From positions 2,195,501 through 2,259,500 of the forward strand of contig NZ_CP070982.1 in assembly GCF_018417595.1 (NCBI RefSeq): a stretch of 64,000 nucleotides of DNA. Direction: 5' to 3'. Shown here one piece after another: positions 4,190-18,428 of this stretch. The DNA comes from Pseudomonas entomophila (GTDB lineage Bacteria > Pseudomonadota > Gammaproteobacteria > Pseudomonadales > Pseudomonadaceae). The notes below the pieces were generated by a model. That model was not told where the DNA came from, searched no databases, and worked only from the letters and a program-made list of their open reading frames with translations. Position numbers and translations under genes: made by a program. Numbering within the stretch: position 1 is the stretch's first letter; the number at the start of each line of letters is the position of its first letter.

Positions 4190-4852
4190 ATGCGTGATTC
4201 GGTAGCCAAGCCTGAAGTCGAAGGGGCGCGCAAGACGCGCAAGAACAACCCGGAGAAGACCCGCGAGAACATCCTCCAGGCCGCCATCACCGAGTTCGTC
4301 CAGCAGGGCCTGGCCGGTGCCCGGGTCGACGCCATCGCCGAGCGCACCGCCACCTCCAAGCGCATGATCTACTACTACTTCGGCAGCAAGGAGCAGCTGT
4401 ACGTCGAGTGCCTGGTCAAGCTCTACGGCGACATCCGCAAGACCGAACAGCGCCTGGACCTCGAGTCGCTGCCCGCCGAACAGGCGATCCGCCGCCTGGT
4501 GGAGTTTACCTTCGACCACCACGACCACAACGTCGATTTCGTGCGCATCGTCTGTACCGAGAACATCCACTACGGCGAGTACGTCAAGCAGTCGCCGGTG
4601 ATCCGCGAGATGAGCAGCCTGGTGCTGGAGTCGCTTGGTCGCACCCTGCAACGCGGCGTGGAGGAGGGCGTGTTCCGCCCGGGCATCGAGGTGATCGACC
4701 TGCACATGCTGATGAGTTCGTTCTGCTTCTACCGGGTGTCCAACCGCCACACCTTCGGCGACATCTTCCAGATCGACCTGGCCGACGAGCAGATCAAGCT
4801 GCGCCACAAGCAGATGATCGGTGACGCGGTGATGCGCTACATCAAGGCCTGA
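4190..4852 (+). CDS. TetR/AcrR-family transcriptional regulator
   Basis: A 220-residue regulator. The basic N-terminal tail (residues 1-25) precedes a TetR helix-turn-helix at about residues 28-72, including AIAERTATSKRMIYYYFGSK, whose YYYFGSKE end is the family signature. The C-terminal ligand domain shows no recognisable specificity. It is downstream of and codirectional with quiC, separated by REP elements, so a role in shikimate/quinate gene control is likely. It is equally adjacent to the oxidase/carbamoyltransferase operon that starts 260 bp downstream and could control that instead. The ribosome-binding site (GAGTCGG) is moderate. Confidence 0.85.
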   Translation: MRDSVAKPEVEGARKTRKNNPEKTRENILQAAITEFVQQGLAGARVDAIAERTATSKRMIYYYFGSKEQLYVECLVKLYGDIRKTEQRLDLESLPAEQAIRRLVEFTFDHHDHNVDFVRIVCTENIHYGEYVKQSPVIREMSSLVLESLGRTLQRGVEEGVFRPGIEVIDLHMLMSSFCFYRVSNRHTFGDIFQIDLADEQIKLRHKQMIGDAVMRYIKA

Positions 4853-5112: not shown

Positions 5113-7290
5113 ATGGCCAACCTGGCGCAGGAAGTGCCTGCGTTCACCGCACCCAGCTTTCTGGCGATCACGCCGACAGCGCTCGGGCAGGTGCGATTGA
5201 ACGCCCGGCAATGGTTCTTCAGACTGGTCAACCAGGAAGAGCGACATGGCTTGCTGGAGCTGGTCTGGACGCAGGTGACGCAGCGCCTCGAGGCGTATCG
5301 CGACACGGGCACGCTGCAAGCGGCCGCAATCGACCAGCCATCGCGAGCGCTTCACGAGGGCCTGCGGGCCCACTATCCCGCGCTGATCCCCGATAAAGCG
5401 CGCAAACGTCACTTCTATTGCCAGCACGCCCCCTTGTTCAAGGTGATGGGGGGCTGGCTCGATGGGGTGACCTCGATCGCCCATGCCTGGCGAGCGGACA
5501 GTGGCCAGTTGCTCAAGATCCATGCGCTGATGGTCGGTGGCGGTTATCCGCAGCGTAGCCAGAGCCGGCTGTTCGACCAGGCGGCGCAACGTGTGGGCAC
5601 GGCCGTGGCCGAGGTGTTCAGCCATCGCTTCTGCGACGATCCGGCCATCGAGGACGCAGCATTCGAACTGCCGGTCTTTTTGCTGGCCCTGGCCTGCTTC
5701 CCGCGGGCATTCCATGCCGAGACACTGGGCGTCAACCTGGCCCTGTGCGACTACGTCGACCAGCTCAATGCCCTGCGTGAAGGTGACACCGCGCTGTTCG
5801 GACAGCCCCAGGCAACGGCCTACCATGGCATGGCCGTGACCGCGCTCGATCTCTTCCAGCAACGGGCATCGGTGGCCGATGGCGCCCGGGTCGGCACGGG
5901 CTATCGTTGCGCACTGACGATGATCGAAACCCACGAGCGGCAACTGGTCCAGGTGCTGGCCGACCCGCTGCGCTTCAACGAACATGCCGCCATGGTGGCC
6001 CTCATCGACAGGCTGGGGCGTCACGGTTGTGGTTACCACCAGCGCGGGCAACTGGCGGGCGAGCCCATCGACCAATGGCTGGCGGCGGAGACGTTCTGCC
6101 CCCACGCCACGGTCCGGGCGTTGGCCGCTTCGCGCTATGTTCGCCCTGGCCAGCCGGCGCGCAGCGCGCTGCTGAACATCATCGGCAAACCCACCGGCAG
6201 CATGTTCGGGGTGTTCTCCAGCGACGACATCGCGGTGGTCGAGCGATGGATCTCGACGCTGGCACCCACCGCCGAGCGCCCGACGGCAAGCGTCGAGGGC
6301 ACCCCGACCACGCCTGTGGCCGTGACCTTGTGCGACCAGGCATTGGCCCAGGCCAACCGGCTTGCCTTGAGAAAGTACCGGCACCTGCCGCTGCGGGCCT
6401 TGTATCCCCTGTTTCTGCAGATCGACCAGGCGCCCGACGCCTTGCCCGCAGCCCGGGCCTTCGCCGACGCCTGGCTGGCGCGGCACCGGCTTGGCCTGCG
6501 CCGCGAAGGGCTGCCGTTCAGCCCATACCGCCATGAAGCCCTGGCGCAATGGCTGGAGGCGCAGCATGCGCGGCAGGTGCAGAGCTATCGCCCTCTGGTT
6601 GGCGCCCCCGAGGAAACTCGCGAGGAGATCGTCGCCGACGCCCTGAGCCTGGCCCCCCTGACCCTGATCGACGGTGCCTGGCTGCGCCAGGTGGTGGCCC
6701 CGGCCAGTGTCACCACACCGATTGGCGCCTTGCTCTACCGCACGTTGATCGACGAACTGGGGCAGGGCGACAGCGCGCTGCACCACGGCAACATCTATCA
6801 ACAACTGCTGGCGAGCATGGGCCAGGACGTGGGCAGCTTCGTCGAGCCGGACTTCGCCGCGGCGCGCCATTTCGAGGAAGACGACCTGCGGGTGCCGGTG
6901 TTCTGGTTGGCCATCTCGCTGTTCCCGCAGCGATATCAACCGGAAACCCTGGGCCTGAACCTGGCCATGGAGCTGTCGGGTGTGGGCGGTGAATACCGGC
7001 GCTCCGCCGATGTCCTGCGCCACTACGGTTTCAGCTCGCTGTTCACCGACCTGCACAACACCATCGACAACGTGGCCAGCGGCCACACCGCCTGGGCCAT
7101 CGAGGCAATCCGCCAGCACCTGGACGATGCCCTGCAGCGCGGCGGCGAGCAGGAGCAGGCGCGGCACTGGGAGCGGATCTGGGTGGGTTATCGCGCCCTG
7201 AGCCCACCGTCGGGGTCGCCGTTGCAGTGGGTCAAGGACCGCCTGCACAGCATTCGCCACACATTCACTCAACGACGAGGTGCGCCATGA
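5113..7290 (+). CDS. Haem-oxygenase-like diiron oxidase (HDO), two tandem repeats
   Basis: A 725-residue protein of the iron-containing redox enzyme (haem-oxygenase-like) superfamily, whose characterised members perform oxygen-dependent C-C cleavage, N-oxygenation or hydroxylation in natural-product pathways. The C-terminal repeat (about 470-700) keeps a full ligand pattern: E548 and H557/H558 in DELGQGDSALHHGN, E611 in ETLGLNLAME, and H648, D652, H658 in LHNTIDNVASGH. The N-terminal repeat keeps E203 (ETLGVNLAL) and H274 but the E-x-G-x-G...H segment reads ALMVGGGYPQRSQ, so it appears to have lost metal ligands. A linker with ASRYVRPGQPA joins them. Start ATG 5113 follows AGGAGGGG. It overlaps the exporter gene by 4 bases (ATGA). 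The substrate is unknown; the layout reminds me of the PvfB/MgoB type but no NRPS is present. Confidence 0.8.
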   Translation: MANLAQEVPAFTAPSFLAITPTALGQVRLNARQWFFRLVNQEERHGLLELVWTQVTQRLEAYRDTGTLQAAAIDQPSRALHEGLRAHYPALIPDKARKRHFYCQHAPLFKVMGGWLDGVTSIAHAWRADSGQLLKIHALMVGGGYPQRSQSRLFDQAAQRVGTAVAEVFSHRFCDDPAIEDAAFELPVFLLALACFPRAFHAETLGVNLALCDYVDQLNALREGDTALFGQPQATAYHGMAVTALDLFQQRASVADGARVGTGYRCALTMIETHERQLVQVLADPLRFNEHAAMVALIDRLGRHGCGYHQRGQLAGEPIDQWLAAETFCPHATVRALAASRYVRPGQPARSALLNIIGKPTGSMFGVFSSDDIAVVERWISTLAPTAERPTASVEGTPTTPVAVTLCDQALAQANRLALRKYRHLPLRALYPLFLQIDQAPDALPAARAFADAWLARHRLGLRREGLPFSPYRHEALAQWLEAQHARQVQSYRPLVGAPEETREEIVADALSLAPLTLIDGAWLRQVVAPASVTTPIGALLYRTLIDELGQGDSALHHGNIYQQLLASMGQDVGSFVEPDFAAARHFEEDDLRVPVFWLAISLFPQRYQPETLGLNLAMELSGVGGEYRRSADVLRHYGFSSLFTDLHNTIDNVASGHTAWAIEAIRQHLDDALQRGGEQEQARHWERIWVGYRALSPPSGSPLQWVKDRLHSIRHTFTQRRGAP

Positions 7291-7904
7291 CGTACGGCTT
7301 TCTCTCCTTTCTGCTGGCAGTCCTGATCATCAATGCCTCCCCCGGGCCGGCCATGCTGTACGTGATGAACCAGTCACTGCGCCACGGCGTGCGCACGGGG
7401 CTCAAGGCCGCCGCCGGGGTCGAGTTCGGGGTGTTTTTCTACGTGCTGCTGGCGGCGTTCGGCCTGATGCTGATCTTCAAGGAAGTACCGTTGCTGTACC
7501 GCATCGTCCAGGTGGCCGGCGCCCTGTACCTGCTGTACCTGGCCTACACCTGTTGGCCACGGCGCGCCGCGGCCGGTGCCAGCGCCAGTGGCGAGGGTAC
7601 GCCGCCGCCCGCGCGCTTCGCCTTCGGCAAGGGCGTGCTGATCAACCTGTCCAACCCCAAGATCGGCCTGTTCTTCGTCAGCCTGCTGCCGCAATTCGTG
7701 CCGGCCGACGCCCAACCTGCCTGGCTGTATTTCCTGATCTACGGCCTGGTGTTCAACATCGGCGGCATCCTGGTGAACATGACCGTGGGCCTGGCGGCTC
7801 ATAACCTGCGGGCGTTCATCCAGCGCAGCTCGTGGTTCGACTACGTGCCACCGGTGCTGTTCCTGGCCATCGCGGTACTGACCCTGACACGGGAGTTCGC
7901 ATGA
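7287..7904 (+). CDS. LysE/RhtB-family small-molecule exporter
   Basis: A 205-residue inner-membrane protein with the family pattern: the N-terminal NASPGPAMLYVM motif in TM1, hydrophobic segments around 40-60, 65-85, 120-140, 145-170 and 180-200, and the NLSNPKIGLFF stretch before TM4. Members export amino acids and derivatives. Its ATG overlaps the oxidase stop (ATGA at 7287-7290) and its own stop overlaps the carbamoyltransferase start in the same way, so it is translationally coupled in the operon. Inference: it secretes the operon product, or a modified amino acid. Confidence 0.87.
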   Translation: MTYGFLSFLLAVLIINASPGPAMLYVMNQSLRHGVRTGLKAAAGVEFGVFFYVLLAAFGLMLIFKEVPLLYRIVQVAGALYLLYLAYTCWPRRAAAGASASGEGTPPPARFAFGKGVLINLSNPKIGLFFVSLLPQFVPADAQPAWLYFLIYGLVFNIGGILVNMTVGLAAHNLRAFIQRSSWFDYVPPVLFLAIAVLTLTREFA

Positions 7905-9733
7905 CTTACATCCTCGGGCTATCGGCCTTCTACCACGACAGCGCGGTCACCCTGATCAAGGACGGGCAGATCGTCTGCGCCTTGCAGGAAGAGCGCTTTT
8001 CCCGGATCAAGCAGGACCGCGGCTTCCCCCGCCATGCCCTGCGCGCCTGCCTGGAGCAGGCCGGCATCAGCCTGGCCGATGTCGCCTGGCTGGCCTACTA
8101 CGAAGACCCGGAGGTGAAGTTCGAGCGCATCTGCACCACCTACAAGCGCAACTTCCCCCGTGGCGCGCTGGCCTTCGCCCAGCAATACACCAGTTTTGCC
8201 GCGCGCCGGGACATCAAGGGCATCATCAACACGGAGTTGCAGGGGCTGTTCCCGGACCAGCCGCTGCCGGCGATCTTCATCAGCCAGCACCACCTGAGCC
8301 ACGCCGCGTCGGCGTTCTACCCGTCGCCCTATCAAGAGGCCGCGGTGCTGTGCGTGGACGGGGTCGGCGAGTGGTCGACCACCACGGCCTGGCAGGGCAA
8401 GGGCAACCAGCTCGAACCGCTGTTCGAGGTGCGCTTCCCGCACTCGTTGGGCTTGCTCTATTCGGCGTTCACCTACTACTGCGGCTTCAAGGTCGACTCC
8501 GGCGAGTACAAGCTGATGGGGCTGGCGCCCTATGGCGAGCCGCGCTTCGTCGACACCATCCTCGAGCACCTGATCACCCTCGAGGAGGACGGCAGCTTCA
8601 GCCTCGCCCGCAAGTACTTCGACTACGAAGTCGGCGAGCGGATGATCAGCACGGCGTTCGAGACCCTGTTCGGCGCGCCGGCCCGGGAGCCGGAAAGCCC
8701 CATCGGCCAGCGCGAAATGGACCTGGCGGCGTCGATTCAGGTGGTTACCGAGCGGGTCATGCTGGCCCTGGCGCGGCGGATCAAGGCACAGACCCAGGCC
8801 GACTACCTGTGCCTGGCCGGTGGCGTGGCGCTCAACTGCGTCGCCAATGGCAAACTCCTGCGTTCGGGGCTGTTCAAGGGCTTGTTCGTCCAGCCGGCCT
8901 CGGGTGACTCGGGCGGTTCGCTGGGCGCGGCGCTGCATTGTCACTACCAGACCAGCCAAGCGGCGCGCCAGGCCAATGGCGTGGACGACACAATGCAGGG
9001 CGCCTACCTGGGCAATGCCTACGACAGCCCGCAGATCGAACGCACCCTCAACCACCACGGCGCGCCGTACCAGAAGCTCGACCGGGCCGCGTTGCTCGCC
9101 GCCACCGCCCGGCACCTGGCCGAGGACAAGGTGGTGGGCTGGTTCCAGGGGCGCATGGAGTTCGGCCCGCGCTCGCTGGGTGCGCGCTCGATCCTCGGTA
9201 ACCCGCGTTCGGCGACGATGCAGAGCGTGATGAACCTGAAGATCAAGAACCGCGAGTCGTTCCGCCCGTTCGCCCCGGCGGTGCTGGCCGAGCAGGCCGG
9301 GCAGTGGTTCGAGCTGGATACGCCGTCGCCCTACATGCTGATCGTCGCCCCGGTGCACGCGCAAAAGCGCCTGGCCGGGTTGGACGAGCGCGGCTACAGC
9401 GGCATCGAAAAACTGCAACTGGTGCGTTCGCAGATCCCGGCGGTCACCCACGTCGACTGTTCGGCCCGGGTGCAGACGGTGGACGGGCGGCACAACCCGC
9501 TGTTCCGCGACTTGCTGGCCAGCTTTGCCGACCTCACCGGCTGCCCGGTGCTGATCAACACCTCGTTCAACGTGCGCGGCGAACCCATCGTCGAGAGCCC
9601 GGAAGACGCCTACCGCTGTTTCATGCGCACCGAAATGGATTGCCTGGTGCTCGGCGACTACCTGCTGCTCAAGGACGAGCAGCCGCGCTGGCACGAAGTG
9701 GCCGACTGGAGAAGCCAATATGCACTCGACTGA
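7901..9733 (+). CDS. Carbamoyltransferase, NodU/CmcH/TobZ family
   Basis: A 610-residue enzyme of the O-carbamoyltransferase family, which uses carbamoyl phosphate and ATP to make carbamoyl-adenylate and passes the group to a hydroxyl. The N-terminal Kae1-like domain begins GLSAFYHDSAV, with SQHHLSHAASAFY and VLCVDGVGEW for metal and nucleotide binding and LAGGVALNCVANGKL near residue 310. The C-terminal YrdC-like domain has FGPRSLGARSILGNPR and NVRGEPIVESPEDA. Full family length. ATG 7901 overlaps the exporter stop; the gene end overlaps the SGNH gene by 14 bases. In antibiotic and Nod-factor pathways these enzymes add the final carbamate. The acceptor here is unknown. Confidence 0.92.
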   Translation: MTYILGLSAFYHDSAVTLIKDGQIVCALQEERFSRIKQDRGFPRHALRACLEQAGISLADVAWLAYYEDPEVKFERICTTYKRNFPRGALAFAQQYTSFAARRDIKGIINTELQGLFPDQPLPAIFISQHHLSHAASAFYPSPYQEAAVLCVDGVGEWSTTTAWQGKGNQLEPLFEVRFPHSLGLLYSAFTYYCGFKVDSGEYKLMGLAPYGEPRFVDTILEHLITLEEDGSFSLARKYFDYEVGERMISTAFETLFGAPAREPESPIGQREMDLAASIQVVTERVMLALARRIKAQTQADYLCLAGGVALNCVANGKLLRSGLFKGLFVQPASGDSGGSLGAALHCHYQTSQAARQANGVDDTMQGAYLGNAYDSPQIERTLNHHGAPYQKLDRAALLAATARHLAEDKVVGWFQGRMEFGPRSLGARSILGNPRSATMQSVMNLKIKNRESFRPFAPAVLAEQAGQWFELDTPSPYMLIVAPVHAQKRLAGLDERGYSGIEKLQLVRSQIPAVTHVDCSARVQTVDGRHNPLFRDLLASFADLTGCPVLINTSFNVRGEPIVESPEDAYRCFMRTEMDCLVLGDYLLLKDEQPRWHEVADWRSQYALD

Positions 9734-10853
9734 AAAGCCTGCACTGACCCACCACGAGGCCGTGCAGGAGGTGTACCGCTGGACGCCGCAGATCCGCGAC
9801 TACGACCGCTTCATGCACATCGGCGCGCGCTGGGTGCCGTACACCATGTATTTCCACGAAAAAATGTTCCGCTCGCCGACCATCAACACCGATGCCCTGG
9901 GCTTTCGCTACACCGAATTCGACGGCAAGCGCCATTCGGTGGCCGAGCGCCCGCTGGCGGGCAAGGTCAACCTGCTGGTGGGCGGCTCCACCGCGTTGGG
10001 TGTGGGGTCGACCCACGACGGTGCCACGGTGGCTTCGTATCTCAGCGCGATCACCGGCGAGGTTTGGCTGAATTTCGCCGGGCGCGGCTATAACGCCACG
10101 CAGGAGCTGCTGATGTACCTGATGCAGCAGAAACGCATCGGCGAGGTCGGCCACGTGGTGGTGTTCAGCGGCATCAACACGCTAGCCCTGGAGGGCATTC
10201 CCGACGCCTTCGCCAGCGACCATGGGCGCTACTACTACTCGTTCGAATTCCAGCACTACATGAACAAGTTCAACGAGGACATGAAGCGCAAGAAGAACAC
10301 CTTCGGCGGCGCCGGTGGCGAATCGCTGTTCAAACGCTGGAAGAGCGCCCTGTTCGACGAGAACCCGGCCGATGAGGTGATCACCGACGAAGGTGTCTCG
10401 CTGGACGAGCGCCTGGAGCGGGCGGCCCTGGCGATCACCGATGCGCTGAAGCAATGGCGGTTGCTGCTGGCCGGCCATGGCGCCAGCCTGAGCTTTGTCC
10501 TGCAGCCGTTGGCGCATTGGTGCCGGGAACGCCTGACCGCTGAAGAAGAGGCAGTGTTCCACGCCATCGACAGCTGCCCGAACAACTTCTACCGCCTGTT
10601 CAGCGGCGTGCTCGGCAAGGAGGTGCATGCACCGTTCTTCCAGCACATCCAGGCCAGCGCCGACGGCATTCCCTGCCTGGACATGAACGAAATGCTCAAA
10701 TCCAGCCCCGTCTTCGAGGAAACGCTGTTCGTGGACCGCGTCCACTTCAACGACCTCGGCAACCAGCAACTCGCTCAATTGATCAGTGACGAACTCGGCC
10801 TTTACCAGGAGAAAAGCCATGAGCCTCATTCGCAAGCTGTTAAGCCTGTTTAA
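9720..10853 (+). CDS. SGNH/GDSL hydrolase-like protein
   Basis: A 377-residue protein with an SGNH-type active-site layout: S90 in VGGSTALG (block I), G123 in AGRGYNATQE (block II), N153 in FSGIN (block III) and D339/H342 in DRVHFNDLGN (block V). There is no signal peptide or membrane segment, so it should be cytoplasmic. Members act as esterases or acyltransferases; which is not decidable here. Its start lies inside the carbamoyltransferase gene and its last 35 bases contain the start of the 25-residue peptide, so it is locked into the operon. I recall SGNH proteins beside NodU-type carbamoyltransferases in other genomes, which supports a shared pathway. Confidence 0.8.
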   Translation: MHSTEKPALTHHEAVQEVYRWTPQIRDYDRFMHIGARWVPYTMYFHEKMFRSPTINTDALGFRYTEFDGKRHSVAERPLAGKVNLLVGGSTALGVGSTHDGATVASYLSAITGEVWLNFAGRGYNATQELLMYLMQQKRIGEVGHVVVFSGINTLALEGIPDAFASDHGRYYYSFEFQHYMNKFNEDMKRKKNTFGGAGGESLFKRWKSALFDENPADEVITDEGVSLDERLERAALAITDALKQWRLLLAGHGASLSFVLQPLAHWCRERLTAEEEAVFHAIDSCPNNFYRLFSGVLGKEVHAPFFQHIQASADGIPCLDMNEMLKSSPVFEETLFVDRVHFNDLGNQQLAQLISDELGLYQEKSHEPHSQAVKPV

Positions 10854-10896
10854 GCGCAAGAAGAAACGCGGCGGGTCGATCTACCCGCTGCGGTAG
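10819..10896 (+). CDS. 25-residue basic peptide at the operon end
   Basis: ATG 10819 is preceded by CCAGGAGAAAAGCC, an excellent ribosome-binding site with ideal spacing, and the frame closes at TAG 10894. The peptide has an amphipathic start (MSLIRKLLSLF), a Lys/Arg block (residues 12-17), then GG and a short tail ending IYPLR. It overlaps the SGNH gene by 35 bases in another frame. It may be a substrate (RiPP-like leader and core), a small membrane-associated partner, or a shrunken relative of the small DUF5989 proteins I recall near carbamoyltransferase/SGNH pairs, lacking their membrane segment. Translation is likely; function is unknown. I see no peptidase or dedicated RiPP enzyme next to it. 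Confidence 0.55.
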   Translation: MSLIRKLLSLFKRKKKRGGSIYPLR

Positions 10897-10898
10897 CC

Positions 10899-11013
10899 GT
10901 AGGAGCGGCCTTCAGCCGCGAAAGGGCTGCGTAGCAGCCCCAGGATTTCAGATTTAGCAAAGATCGTCGGGGCCGCTCTGCGGCCCTTTCGCGGCTGAAG
11001 GCCGCTCCTACAG
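10899..11013. repeat. REP pair (inverted) after the oxidase operon
   Basis: GTAGGAGCGGCCTTCAGCCG is mirrored by CGGCTGAAGGCCGCTCCTAC about 80 bp later, with an inner GGGCTGCGTAGC/CGCTCTGCGGCCC part. It starts 3 bases after the peptide stop and lies between convergent genes, where it can act as a transcript end. Confidence 0.85.
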
Positions 11014-11038
11014 GGGGCGTGTTGAACCCAAAGTATGT

Positions 11039-11887
11039 TCAGCCCAGGCTGGCGAAATGCGCCTGCATGCGCTCGGCATCGGCCGGGCGACCGCTGAACA
11101 GCTCGAACGCCTTGACCGCCTGGAACACCGCCATGGTGCCGCCATCCAGGGTGCGGCAACCCAGCGCCCGGGCCTGGCGCAGCAGTTCGGTCTCCAGCGG
11201 GAAATAGATGATCTCCGCCACCCACAGGCGTGCCTGCAACAGCTGCACAGGCAACGGCATGCCCGGCAGCTTGGCCATGCCCACCGGGGTGGTGTTGACC
11301 AGGCCATCGGCTTCGGCCATCGCACTTGCCAGGTCCTGCCCGAGCACCGCGCGCCCGGCACCAAAACGCTGCGCCAGATTGGCCACCAGTGCCTGCCCAC
11401 GGGCCGTGTCCACCTCGAACAGCACCAGCCGTTCGACACCTTCAGCGAGCAGGGCATGGGCCACCGCCGAGCCCGCGCCGCCCGCGCCCAGTTGCACCAC
11501 CTGGCGCCGCTCGACATCCGGCAAACCGCGCCGGAAACCCTCGGCAAAGCCAAGACAGTCGGTGTTGTGGCCAATCCGCCGACCGTCGCGCAGCACCACG
11601 GTGTTGACCGCGCCGATACCGCGGGCCTCCTCCGACAGTTCATCGAGCAACGGCAGGATCGCCTGCTTGAACGGGAAGGTGACGTTAAGCCCGGTGAAGC
11701 CGGTGCGCTGGGCGGCGTCGAGCAACTGGGGCAGGGCGCTGTCGTCAACGCCCAACTGGTCGGCGTCGATCAGCCGGTAGAGGTAGCGCAGCGCCTGGGC
11801 GTCGCCTTCCGCCTCGTGCAGCGCGGGGGTGCGCGAGGCCTGGATGCCACGGCCGATCAGGCCGGCGAGAATGCCGGGAGCGCTCAT
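11039..11887 (-). CDS. aroE: Shikimate/quinate 5-dehydrogenase (catabolic AroE paralogue)
   Basis: A 282-residue shikimate dehydrogenase family protein. NVTFPFKQ carries catalytic K74 and HNTDCLGF carries D110; the nucleotide loop GAGGAG spans 134-139. After the next strand comes FEVD with D160, where NADP-dependent AroE proteins have an Asn-Arg-Thr motif, so NAD use is expected, as in catabolic quinate/shikimate dehydrogenases. It follows aroQ with a 4-base ATGA overlap. Together with QuiC it would turn shikimate or quinate into protocatechuate. This is probably a second, catabolic copy rather than the housekeeping aroE; an allele number cannot be assigned. Confidence 0.88.
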
Positions 11888-12333
11888 GCCGCCTGCTCCT
11901 TGAACAACCCGCTGAAGTAGCCGAGGGCCATGGCGTAGCCCTGGCTGCCAAGGCCGCAGATCACCCCGACGGCGATGCTGGAGACGAACGACAGGTGGCG
12001 AAAGGGCTCGCGCTTGTGCACGTTGGACAGGTGCACCTCGATCACCGGCAACTCGGTGGCCACCAGCGCGTCGCGGATGGCCACCGAGGTGTGGGTCCAG
12101 GCGGCGGGGTTGATCAGGATGCCGTGGCAGCGGCCACGGGCGGCGTGGATCCAGTCGATCAGCTCGCCTTCGTGGTTGGTCTGGCGGAATTCCAGTTCCA
12201 GGCCCAGTGCGCGGGCGCTGGCGGCGCACTGGGTGGCCAGGTCGGCGAGGGTTTCGTGACCGTACTGGGTGGGTTCGCGGGTGCCCAACAGGTTCAGGTT
12301 GGGGCCGTTGAGCACGAGGATTCGGGGTGTCAT
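11884..12333 (-). CDS. aroQ: Type II 3-dehydroquinate dehydratase
   Basis: A 149-residue type II dehydroquinase that interconverts 3-dehydroquinate and 3-dehydroshikimate. Family motifs are complete: [15 protein letters not shown] with R19 and Y24, [16 protein letters not shown], and [15 protein letters not shown] with H101 and R112. Typical length. First gene of a two-gene unit with aroE; a PcaR-like site lies about 85 bp upstream. In this context it serves quinate catabolism, feeding QuiC. Confidence 0.93.
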
Positions 12334-13892: not shown

Positions 13893-13990
13893 CAGCCCAT
13901 CGCGACACAAGGCCGCTCCCACAGGGAACGCGCAGAACTGACGATCGATACCAAAACCTTGTGGGAGCGGCCTTGTGTCGCGATGGGCCG
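13893..13990. repeat. REP pair between czcC and czcB
   Basis: CATCGCGACACAAGGCCGCTCCCAC and its inverse GTGGGAGCGGCCTTGTGTCGCGATG lie about 40 bp apart. The element is inside an operon, where it may tune mRNA stability; it is the same type as that at 24196-24311. Confidence 0.85.
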
Positions 13991-14039
13991 CACTGCGGCC
14001 CCGACGAGGTAACGCCCCAGCCTGGAACCAGGAGCAACA

Positions 14040-15257
14040 ATGACCAACCCACGCAAACTCGCCATTCTCGCCGCCGCCATTGCCGCCCTCGGCCTGGGTG
14101 GCTTGGCCTGGACCGGCACCCTCGGCCAGGCCTCCAGCGGCCAGGCCCAGCAAGACGACCACGGCCACGCCGAAGAACAGGACGACGGTCATGGCCACGG
14201 CGCCGCCGAAGGCGAGGGCGAAAGCCACGGTGAGGAGGAGGGCAAGCTGCACCTCAGCGCCGAGCAGATCCAGGCCGCCGGCGTGCAGCTGAGCACCGCC
14301 GGCCCGCAGACCCTGGGCACCGCCATCAGCTTCCCCGGCGAGATCCGCTTCGACGAAGACCGCACCGCCCACGTGGTGCCCCGGGTACCAGGCGTGGTCG
14401 AGTCGGTGCACGCCGAGCTGGGCCAGGCAGTCAAGCGCGGCCAGGTGCTGGCGGTGATCGCCAGCCAGCAGATCTCCGAGCTGCGCAGCGAACAGCAGGC
14501 CGCCCAGCGCCGCCTGGAACTGGCACGGCTGACCTTCGAACGCGAGAAGCAGCTGCGGCAGGAGCGCATCAGTGCCGAGCAGGACTACCTGCAAGCCCGC
14601 CAGGCCCTGCAGGAGGCCGAGATCGCCGCCGCCAACGCCGGGCAGAAGGTCGCCGCCGTGGCTCCGGCCGGCAAGGGCAACCGCTATGAGCTGCGTGCGC
14701 CGTTCGACGCGGTGGTGGTGGAGAAGCACCTGACCGTGGGCGAGGTGGTGGACGAGACCAGCAACGCCTTCACCCTGTCCGACCTGAGCCGGGTCTGGGC
14801 CACCTTCGCCGTCGCCCCGCGTGACCTGGACAAGGTGGTCAGCGGCCGTGGCGTCACCGTCAGCGCGCCGGACCTCGGCGCCCAGGTCGAGGGCAAGGTC
14901 AACTACGTCGGCAGCCTGCTTGGTGAACAGAATCGCGCCGCCACCGTGCGTGCCACCCTGGCCAACCCCAACGGCGCCTGGCGCCCGGGGCTGTTCGTCA
15001 ATATCGCGGTCACCGTCGAGCGCTTCGACGCCGCCGTGGTGGTACCGGAAAGCGCCTTGCAGACCTGGGAGGAGCAGACCGTGGTGTTCGTGCGCAACGA
15101 CGAAGGTTTCGAGGCCCGCCCGGTCAAGCCCGGGCGCCGCGACAGCGGCCAGGTGGAGATCCGCGAGGGGCTGGCCGCCGGCGCCGTGGTGGCTGCCGCC
15201 GGCAGCTTCGTCCTCAAGTCCGAGCTGGGCAAAGGCTCGGCCGCGCACAGCCACTGA
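14040..15257 (+). CDS. czcB: CzcB-type periplasmic adaptor, His/Asp/Glu-rich N-terminus
   Basis: A 405-residue membrane-fusion protein linking the inner-membrane pump to CzcC. An N-terminal membrane anchor/signal (residues 5-30) precedes a His- and acid-rich stretch at about 40-75 (DDHGHAEEQDDGHGHG), a probable metal-binding segment. Then come a beta-barrel/lipoyl half (ELGQAVKRGQVLAVI), a long helical hairpin (about 140-190), the second lipoyl half (LRAPFDAVVVEKHLTVGEVV) and the membrane-proximal C-terminus. Fifteen bases separate it from czcA. The His-rich insert suits zinc, cadmium or cobalt. Confidence 0.9.
   Translation: MTNPRKLAILAAAIAALGLGGLAWTGTLGQASSGQAQQDDHGHAEEQDDGHGHGAAEGEGESHGEEEGKLHLSAEQIQAAGVQLSTAGPQTLGTAISFPGEIRFDEDRTAHVVPRVPGVVESVHAELGQAVKRGQVLAVIASQQISELRSEQQAAQRRLELARLTFEREKQLRQERISAEQDYLQARQALQEAEIAAANAGQKVAAVAPAGKGNRYELRAPFDAVVVEKHLTVGEVVDETSNAFTLSDLSRVWATFAVAPRDLDKVVSGRGVTVSAPDLGAQVEGKVNYVGSLLGEQNRAATVRATLANPNGAWRPGLFVNIAVTVERFDAAVVVPESALQTWEEQTVVFVRNDEGFEARPVKPGRRDSGQVEIREGLAAGAVVAAAGSFVLKSELGKGSAAHSH

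Positions 15258-18428
<3,171 letters not shown>

Follow-up and report, generated by a model that had tools for sequence, protein, structure and literature searches.

Pseudomonas fluorescens WH6 produces the herbicide 4-formylaminooxyvinylglycine (FVG) by means of the gvg cluster. In the accessible part of its description, gvgA is a lipase/esterase gene, gvgB a lysine-rich small open reading frame (ORF) with approximately 30% lysine in its product, gvgC a heme-oxygenase-2 gene, gvgE, gvgJ and gvgK are LysE genes, gvgF is a NodU carbamoyltransferase gene, gvgG a small ORF, gvgH an aminotransferase gene, gvgI a formyltransferase gene and gvgR a regulator, and both the pathway and the function of its two essential micro-ORFs are called unknown or unclear (PMC8067088). 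At least eight variants of 'gvg-like' clusters, with the core gvgA, gvgB, gvgC and gvgF, occur across many genera, and 'the vast majority' of them are uncharacterised according to the accessible part of Davis et al. (2021, PMC8064604). The crocagin cluster of Chondromyces crocatus includes a carbamoyltransferase, CgnI, and the 21-residue precursor CgnA, composed of a K/R-rich leader and the core Ile-Tyr-Trp, which CgnD frees from the precursor as leader peptidase in assays (PMC10070186). Here, we compare these systems with a five-gene operon at positions 5113–10896 of a 64,000-nucleotide stretch of Pseudomonas entomophila DNA, hereafter called the window.

Gene content and relation to gvg and crocagin clusters

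By its sequence, the operon is a member of the gvg-like class. Homologues of gvgA (the SGNH protein), gvgB (the lysine-rich small ORF), gvgC and gvgF stand in one cluster and are accompanied by a LysE gene (Table 1), and we consider it very probable that the operon is gvg-like and encodes a functional GvgB-type peptide. The reference for this assignment was the locus of P. fluorescens FW300-N2E3 (L075; L-numbers denote the compared loci), a strain to which the literature assigns a gvg cluster. Its peptide gene lies between the genes for the SGNH protein and the heme-oxygenase-like diiron oxidase (HDO) and encodes 8 lysines in 27 residues, and this content of 30% at the gvgB position matches the proportion reported for GvgB. 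All five ORFs of the window operon are on the plus strand and overlap successively by 4, 4, 14 and 35 bases in the ORF list, as the first-pass annotation of the window had stated, and its proposal of a single biosynthesis-and-export unit agrees with the gene order and overlaps, with a carbamoyltransferase, an HDO, a LysE protein and the peptide as an integral part. Its description of the operon as unrecognised has to be abandoned, because the core gvgA, gvgB, gvgC and gvgF is already in print in the accessible parts of PMC8064604 and PMC8067088. The operon is a rare variant of a known, mostly uncharacterised gvg-like family. The words crocagin, RiPP and entomophila are absent from the main text of PMC8064604.

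The operon differs from gvg in gene order, C-LysE-F-A-B in the window versus A-B-C-(D-E)-F in gvg, and in the end of the peptide, which is SIYPLR versus SIYPMF. In loci with the canonical order (L075 after 14025; L103, L089, L077, L041 and L058), the carbamoyltransferase gene is followed by a small hydrophobic ORF at the gvgG position with a TAWD or TYW stretch close to its end. The window has, at this position, the overlap between its SGNH and carbamoyltransferase genes. A relationship of GvgG to SxtJ was considered and dropped for lack of Pfam support.

The HDO, LysE and carbamoyltransferase domains passed the Pfam cut-off, the SGNH protein stayed under it (PF13472, E 5e-4) and the 25-residue peptide matched no Pfam family. 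The first reading of the HDO as a diiron oxidase stands and can be refined. PF14518, the only HDO Pfam match, covers residues 514–692 in the second half of the protein, whose AF2 model has a pLDDT of 87.8; the first half is also HDO-like in fold. E548, H558, E611, H648, D652 and H658, all in the second half, are identical in 103 of 103 aligned HDO rows and probably constitute the diiron ligand set, so that PF14518 and the full putative set, which characterise the HDO superfamily, are both present. The solved relatives of the carbamoyltransferase are decarbamoylnovobiocin carbamoyltransferase, GdmN and TobZ. Both Pfam domains of NodU/TobZ-type O-carbamoyltransferases are present and the conserved positions are kept: H130, H131, H134, D336, R424, R429, K449 and R455 occur in all 83 rows, and H12 in 82 of them.

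The SGNH protein is closely related to CgnD and thus of the type found in the crocagin cluster. As in CgnA, the peptide is K/R-rich and contains IY, but has PLR where CgnA has Trp. The operon also differs from the crocagin pathway in having an HDO where the latter has the α-ketoglutarate dioxygenase CgnC, and in the presence of LysE; by Pfam matches, neither CgnB, CgnE nor CgnC was found among the five window proteins.

Table 1. Features of the P. entomophila operon and its left border, in window coordinates.
Feature	Position	Strand	Basis
GvgC-like tandem heme-oxygenase-like diiron oxidase (HDO), 725 aa	5113..7290	+	PF14518 E 1.4e-16
LysE-family amino-acid exporter, 205 aa counted from ATG	7287..7904	+	PF01810 E 1.2e-31
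GvgF-like NodU/TobZ-type O-carbamoyltransferase, 610 aa	7901..9733	+	PF02543 E 7e-90, PF16861 E 5e-73
GvgA/CgnD-like SGNH protein, 377 aa, triad S90, D339, H342	9720..10853	+	
GvgB/CgnA-like mini-peptide, 25 aa, MSLIRKLLSLFKRKKKRGGSIYPLR	10819..10896	+	K/R-rich ORF adjoining SGNH gene, IYPxx end
SIYPLR tail codons; Tyr22 = proposed acyl/carbamoyl attachment site	10876..10893	+	S-I-Y-P constancy; compare FXYXXF
TetR regulator, left border of insertion	4190..4852	+	PF00440/PF17938

The mini-peptide family and the SGNH paralogue

Each of the 82 mapped SGNH loci encodes a K/R-rich mini-peptide with IYP and two further residues at its end; these loci were found via the HDO and are therefore not a random sample of SGNH genes. 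They comprise 65 named records (40 Actinomycetota, 21 Pseudomonadota, 1 Cyanobacteriota, 1 Chloroflexota and 2 from a plasmid collection) and 17 further genomes, at least seven of which repeat a named record, and their SGNH rows contain 75 distinct sequences. In 77 loci, the small ORF with the IYPxx end was found by its position near the SGNH stop codon and its K/R content alone. The other five loci also contain such a peptide, several kb off in L087 and L099, and at the expected place in L047, L093 and L105, where the SGNH frame is split or the filter missed it. The 77 tails are SIYPMF (52), SIYPMH (10), SIYPLR (8), TIYPMF (3), SIYPMY (3) and TIYPLF (1), so that T replaces S in four and 56 end in F. 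Among 22 peptides picked for diversity, S-I-Y-P is the sole invariant block and the basic part varies in length. Loci from four phyla share the same IYP tail despite differences between the clusters in their other genes, and this near-constant tail is probably the part on which the enzymes work.

Beyond this set, two planctomycete loci in which no SGNH gene was detected (L032 and L033) encode a longer K-rich ORF ending in EIYPLF. No peptide ending in IYP was found in the short-HDO loci L130–L137, and some HDO loci, among them L048, L062, L079, L101 and L102, had neither an IYP peptide nor a DUF5989 tail, nor a CgnD-type SGNH protein by BLAST. Of 14 selected Pseudomonas genomes, the four that carry the operon, and no others, contained the DNA pattern for SIYPLR followed by a stop codon; the reversed control gave no match. 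The corresponding pattern for SIYP[ML]F, which excludes the SIYPLR type, matched 3 of 398 Pseudomonadota genomes versus one control match, which is near chance; this shows the rarity of the tail, but does not show every match to be real. In P. entomophila COR5, a copy of the second part of the peptide gene lies downstream (L029, 14799–14981), with an identical KRGGSIYPLR tail and a different N-terminus. In the record of the Agrobacterium vitis plasmid (L027, 13612–13701), the peptide gene is missing from the gene list, and the accessible part of PMC8064604 reports that gvgB was removed from NCBI annotations. Covariation between tail and SGNH protein was considered as evidence of contact and discarded: in 64 loci, with quick trees lacking bootstrap and containing several long branches, the tail type requires just three changes, the minimum, on each of the three trees (SGNH, carbamoyltransferase and HDO).

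The genome of the window encodes a second SGNH protein, 50% identical to the first, in an operon with PF08892 (YqcI/YcgG) and LysE genes (L150, G000:C1:3706000-3725900, 9642–12189). The trio is common in the genus; PF08892 scored over the cut-off in 62 of 396 Pseudomonas genomes. Among the 30 loci fetched from 63 matches (L158–L187), all contained a LysE-like match, some of them short, and 29 an SGNH gene beside it. The paralogous SGNH proteins of these operons are 43–50% identical to that of the window. In 13 PF08892-LysE-SGNH loci, no peptide ending in IYP was found within 700 bases past the SGNH stop codon and neither the HDO nor the carbamoyltransferase had a match in the available 9–20 kb, and in ten such genomes SIYPLR followed by a stop codon did not occur anywhere. 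The paralogue thus weakens a simple view of the SGNH protein as a peptide processor; its recurrent partners are LysE and a nitrogen-oxidising family. A PF08892 gene was present in all four Pseudomonas genomes with the operon, compared to 62 of 396 overall, and in one of them, G383, this N-hydroxylase-family gene lies 73 bases upstream of the HDO ORF. Outside G383 the link is weak, because PF08892 belongs to a separate operon in the other three genomes, two of the four are near relatives, and the gene is missing from the genomes of G109, Dyella, Nostoc, Irchel 3A7 and P. fungorum as well as from two plasmid-collection records. In A. vitis, a gene for an N-hydroxylase of the SidA/IucD/PvdA family stands beside the same gene set.

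Distribution and genomic site

Loci were mapped by BLAST with the five window proteins, and a scan of named genomes yielded 181 relatives, the best 80 of which were used as L028–L107. Among the matches listed for 398 Pseudomonas species genomes, HDO matches above 1100 bits occurred in four, counting the genome of the window; one further match reached 608 bits and 17 reached 425–477 bits, the latter being of the gvg or another gvg-like type. The rest of the matches listed remained below 100 bits, except for one second copy at 294 bits. Two main architectures were observed: SGNH-peptide-HDO-(LysE)-carbamoyltransferase in P. fluorescens FW300-N2E3 and most actinobacterial loci, and the window order HDO-LysE-carbamoyltransferase-SGNH-peptide. 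The first-pass annotation had made its proposal depend on joint occurrence of the five genes elsewhere, and they do recur jointly: the window order is complete in seven loci, namely the window, COR5, Acinetobacter baumannii (L026), the A. vitis plasmid, Dyella flava (L031), Pseudomonas G383 (L152) and L028, with the LysE gene at the same place in all of them, and L030 follows it as far as its contig end, which cuts the locus. Nostoc (L036), Pseudomonas sp. Irchel 3A7 (L039) and Paraburkholderia (L044 and L047) have the order HDO-carbamoyltransferase-SGNH-peptide with no LysE gene between. The gene set hence travels jointly across genera, and its core across phyla.

Several of these loci show peculiarities of their own. 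The record of L028 is titled 'Pantoea sp. Cy-639', a neighbouring gene in it is 93% identical to a window gene, and G366, a genome placed in the genus of the window, has an operon of the same identities; L028 is probably a mislabelled Pseudomonas. In A. baumannii, whose record is classed as plasmid despite its 4.09 Mb, the operon is accompanied on the opposite strand by an upstream transposase gene and a downstream nitronate monooxygenase gene (6383–7315 and 13943–14929). Downstream of the D. flava operon (14736–17265), arginase (over the TIGR01229 cut-off) and tryptophanyl-tRNA synthetase are encoded, which could reflect chance, chemistry or self-resistance. In Nostoc (6840–8429) and Irchel 3A7 (9403–11073), a second carbamoyltransferase gene, whose product is 30–33% identical, directly follows the peptide gene. 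The second carbamoyltransferase gene in the genome of the window (L151) was rejected as a related case; it adjoins a glycosyltransferase gene, its locus contains no K/R-rich peptide ending in IY, and it is probably unrelated.

In the window, the operon is preceded by quiC (3-dehydroshikimate dehydratase) and the TetR gene and followed on the opposite strand by aroE (shikimate dehydrogenase domains) and aroQ (type II dehydroquinase). Ten loci (L206–L215) were taken from 29 loci around TetR in relatives. The operon represents an insertion at this site, since TetR adjoins aroE without the operon between them in seven of the ten; the remaining three had no aroE inside the available flank. TetR probably belongs to the neighbouring quiC and not to the operon. 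COR5 carries the operon at the same site, with 95–99% identity of the enzymes and the exporter. The operon was probably acquired horizontally; its GC content of 65.5% compared to 66.3% in the window gives no compositional sign of recent foreign origin. Promoter and terminator scans gave no signal above chance level. After the peptide gene, between the convergent genes (10890–11010), an imperfect inverted repeat was read by eye, which resembles a Pseudomonas repetitive extragenic palindromic (REP) pair.

Possible roles of the mini-peptide

The product of the operon is most likely a small carbamoyl-derived, N-oxidised amino-acid-like metabolite, for which the peptide serves as carrier or substrate and which the SGNH protein handles and LysE exports. 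NodU/TobZ-type carbamoyltransferases use carbamoyl phosphate and ATP. In the mechanism that we infer, the carbamoyltransferase would load a carbamoyl group onto the invariant Tyr22 of the SIYPLR tail, the tandem HDO would N-oxidise the carrier-bound group, as its fold neighbours and the N-O bond of FVG suggest, the serine of the CgnD-like SGNH protein would take the group from the tail and transfer or release it to a small acceptor, by analogy with DltX-DltD and PatA-PatB, and LysE, in keeping with its family, would export the product. For these pairs, the accessible part of PMC12148441 describes that the Tyr of a C-terminal FXYXXF motif (in DltX, and in PatA, e.g. FIYANF) is acylated and the group then passed to an SGNH serine, in the DltX/DltD shuttle of D-alanylation and the PatA/PatB shuttle of Gram-negative peptidoglycan O-acetylation. 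The window operon resembles DltX/DltB/DltD and PatA/PatB in having an SGNH partner and a hexapeptide at the C-terminus whose fourth-last residue is Tyr. In contrast to these MBOAT-SGNH systems, it has a carbamoyltransferase in place of an MBOAT acyltransferase, which was not detected by Pfam among the five window proteins, and the peptide has no evident membrane helix. DltD and PatB were not among the SGNH fold matches listed, which does not exclude similarity to them.

We favour this carrier mechanism, because the tail is fixed while the clusters differ, FVG is peptide-free and LysE proteins handle amino acids, but as stated it has rather less than an even chance of being correct. Several observations weigh against it. 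No IYP peptide was found in the PF08892-LysE-SGNH operons that were read, and therefore the SGNH family can act without one, and CgnD, the nearest characterised relative of the SGNH protein, is a leader peptidase and not a transferase in the assay (PMC10070186). In SIYPLR, Tyr is placed as in FXYXXF, but S and R stand for both F, and the last position of the motif is matched by only 56 of the 77 family tails. The tail type tracks the three enzyme trees equally, so that no contact between SGNH protein and peptide is singled out. Finally, the nearest solved folds of the HDO, the N-oxygenases RohS, HrmI and SznF, match with Foldseek E-values no better than 5e-3, and in VIA-align they fall on the N-terminal half, away from the conserved set.

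A serious, if on the whole unlikely, competitor is a crocagin-like ribosomally synthesized and post-translationally modified peptide (RiPP), in which the C-terminus of the peptide, about IYPLR, would itself be the product scaffold. By analogy with crocagin, the HDO would oxidise this core, the carbamoyltransferase would add a carbamate, the SGNH protein would cut off the K/R-rich leader and LysE or another system would export the modified peptide. The close relationship to CgnD favours the peptide as substrate, and the precursor architecture and carbamoyltransferase of the crocagin cluster (PMC10070186), the 25 residues of the window peptide with IY after the basic part, and the variation of the last two residues by clade (LR, MF, MH, MY and LF) are in line with this idea. 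On the other hand, FVG is made with a SIYPMF-type peptide and yet is a four-carbon amino acid free of peptide, which speaks for the peptide as carrier; IYP varies less than RiPP cores usually do, the usual cargo of LysE proteins is single amino acids, and by Pfam none of the five proteins corresponds to CgnB, CgnC or CgnE. We regard it as still less probable that the peptide is a non-covalent adaptor, whose basic amphipathic part would bind the membrane or an acidic enzyme face, while SIYPxx docks to and activates the SGNH protein or the carbamoyltransferase and the small molecule forms in solution. A docking tag could well look like this peptide, with its unvarying C-terminal tail after a basic part that differs in length, and the peptide and SGNH genes adjoin in both gene orders, but mere docking does not require a constant Tyr at the acyl-acceptor position of DltX and PatA. 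An FVG cluster, intact or decayed, is extremely improbable despite the presence of the four core genes, since gvgR, gvgG, gvgH and gvgI are absent among the operon ORFs and immediate neighbours (the rest of the genome was not searched), no reading frame is disrupted and distant genera have the same variant order.

The carrier mechanism may extend beyond the IYP family. Five DUF5989 microproteins end in [FL]IY[TA][LI]F. Three of them, all over the cut-off, are encoded in HDO loci in which no CgnD-type SGNH protein was found by BLAST: L054 (position 2480, ...APFIYTIF), L069 (13920, ...APLIYTIF) and L040 (13580, ...APLIYAIF). The other two, from a family search among distant relatives (2 of 57 genomes), end in APFIYTLF (L140, 1498; L141, 1644). 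The tails of L054, L140 and L141 fit FXYXXF. A carbamoyltransferase gene is present in four of the five loci (L054, L069, L040 and L141), while DUF5989 alone was seen in L140; L040 and L054 have GDSL genes nearby, and in L141 an SxtJ gene lies beside the DUF5989 gene. In these NodU-type cassettes, as in the window operon, a carbamoyltransferase is combined with a microprotein, here with an IY-x-x-F end; they differ from the operon in the long hydrophobic stretch of the microprotein and in SxtJ in L141. We take SxtK to be a DUF5989 protein as well. In saxitoxin synthesis, the carbamoyltransferase SxtI is proposed to act with SxtJ and SxtK in the accessible part of PMC2679770. The aldgamycin alm genes were considered as a chemistry lead, and nothing useful was found among the papers listed. 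The FXYXXF precedent, the DUF5989 tails beside carbamoyltransferases and the SxtI/SxtJ/SxtK proposal led us to the hypothesis of a peptide-borne carbamoyl relay, in which NodU-type enzymes would charge the Tyr of a mini-peptide, soluble in GvgB and membrane-bound in DUF5989, the HDO would oxidise the carbamoyl nitrogen to an N-O unit and an SGNH protein would transfer it. In this general form we consider the relay unlikely, slightly more so than the RiPP and slightly less so than the adaptor.

We did not find GvgB tied to CgnA or to an acyl shuttle in the open PubMed Central literature, which was covered mostly at abstract level and excludes subscription papers. Placing GvgB in a cross-phylum family of IYP-tail peptides that is paired with CgnD-type SGNH proteins makes its unclear role testable, and IYPxx followed by a stop codon beside an SGNH gene provides a handle for mining genomes for micro-ORFs dropped by annotation. 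One mechanism is suggested for several carbamoyltransferase cassettes. If the relay exists, it would account for the N-O bond of FVG and for the unexplained micro-ORFs beside carbamoyltransferases, and would extend the shuttle logic of teichoic-acid D-alanylation and peptidoglycan O-acetylation to small-molecule biosynthesis.

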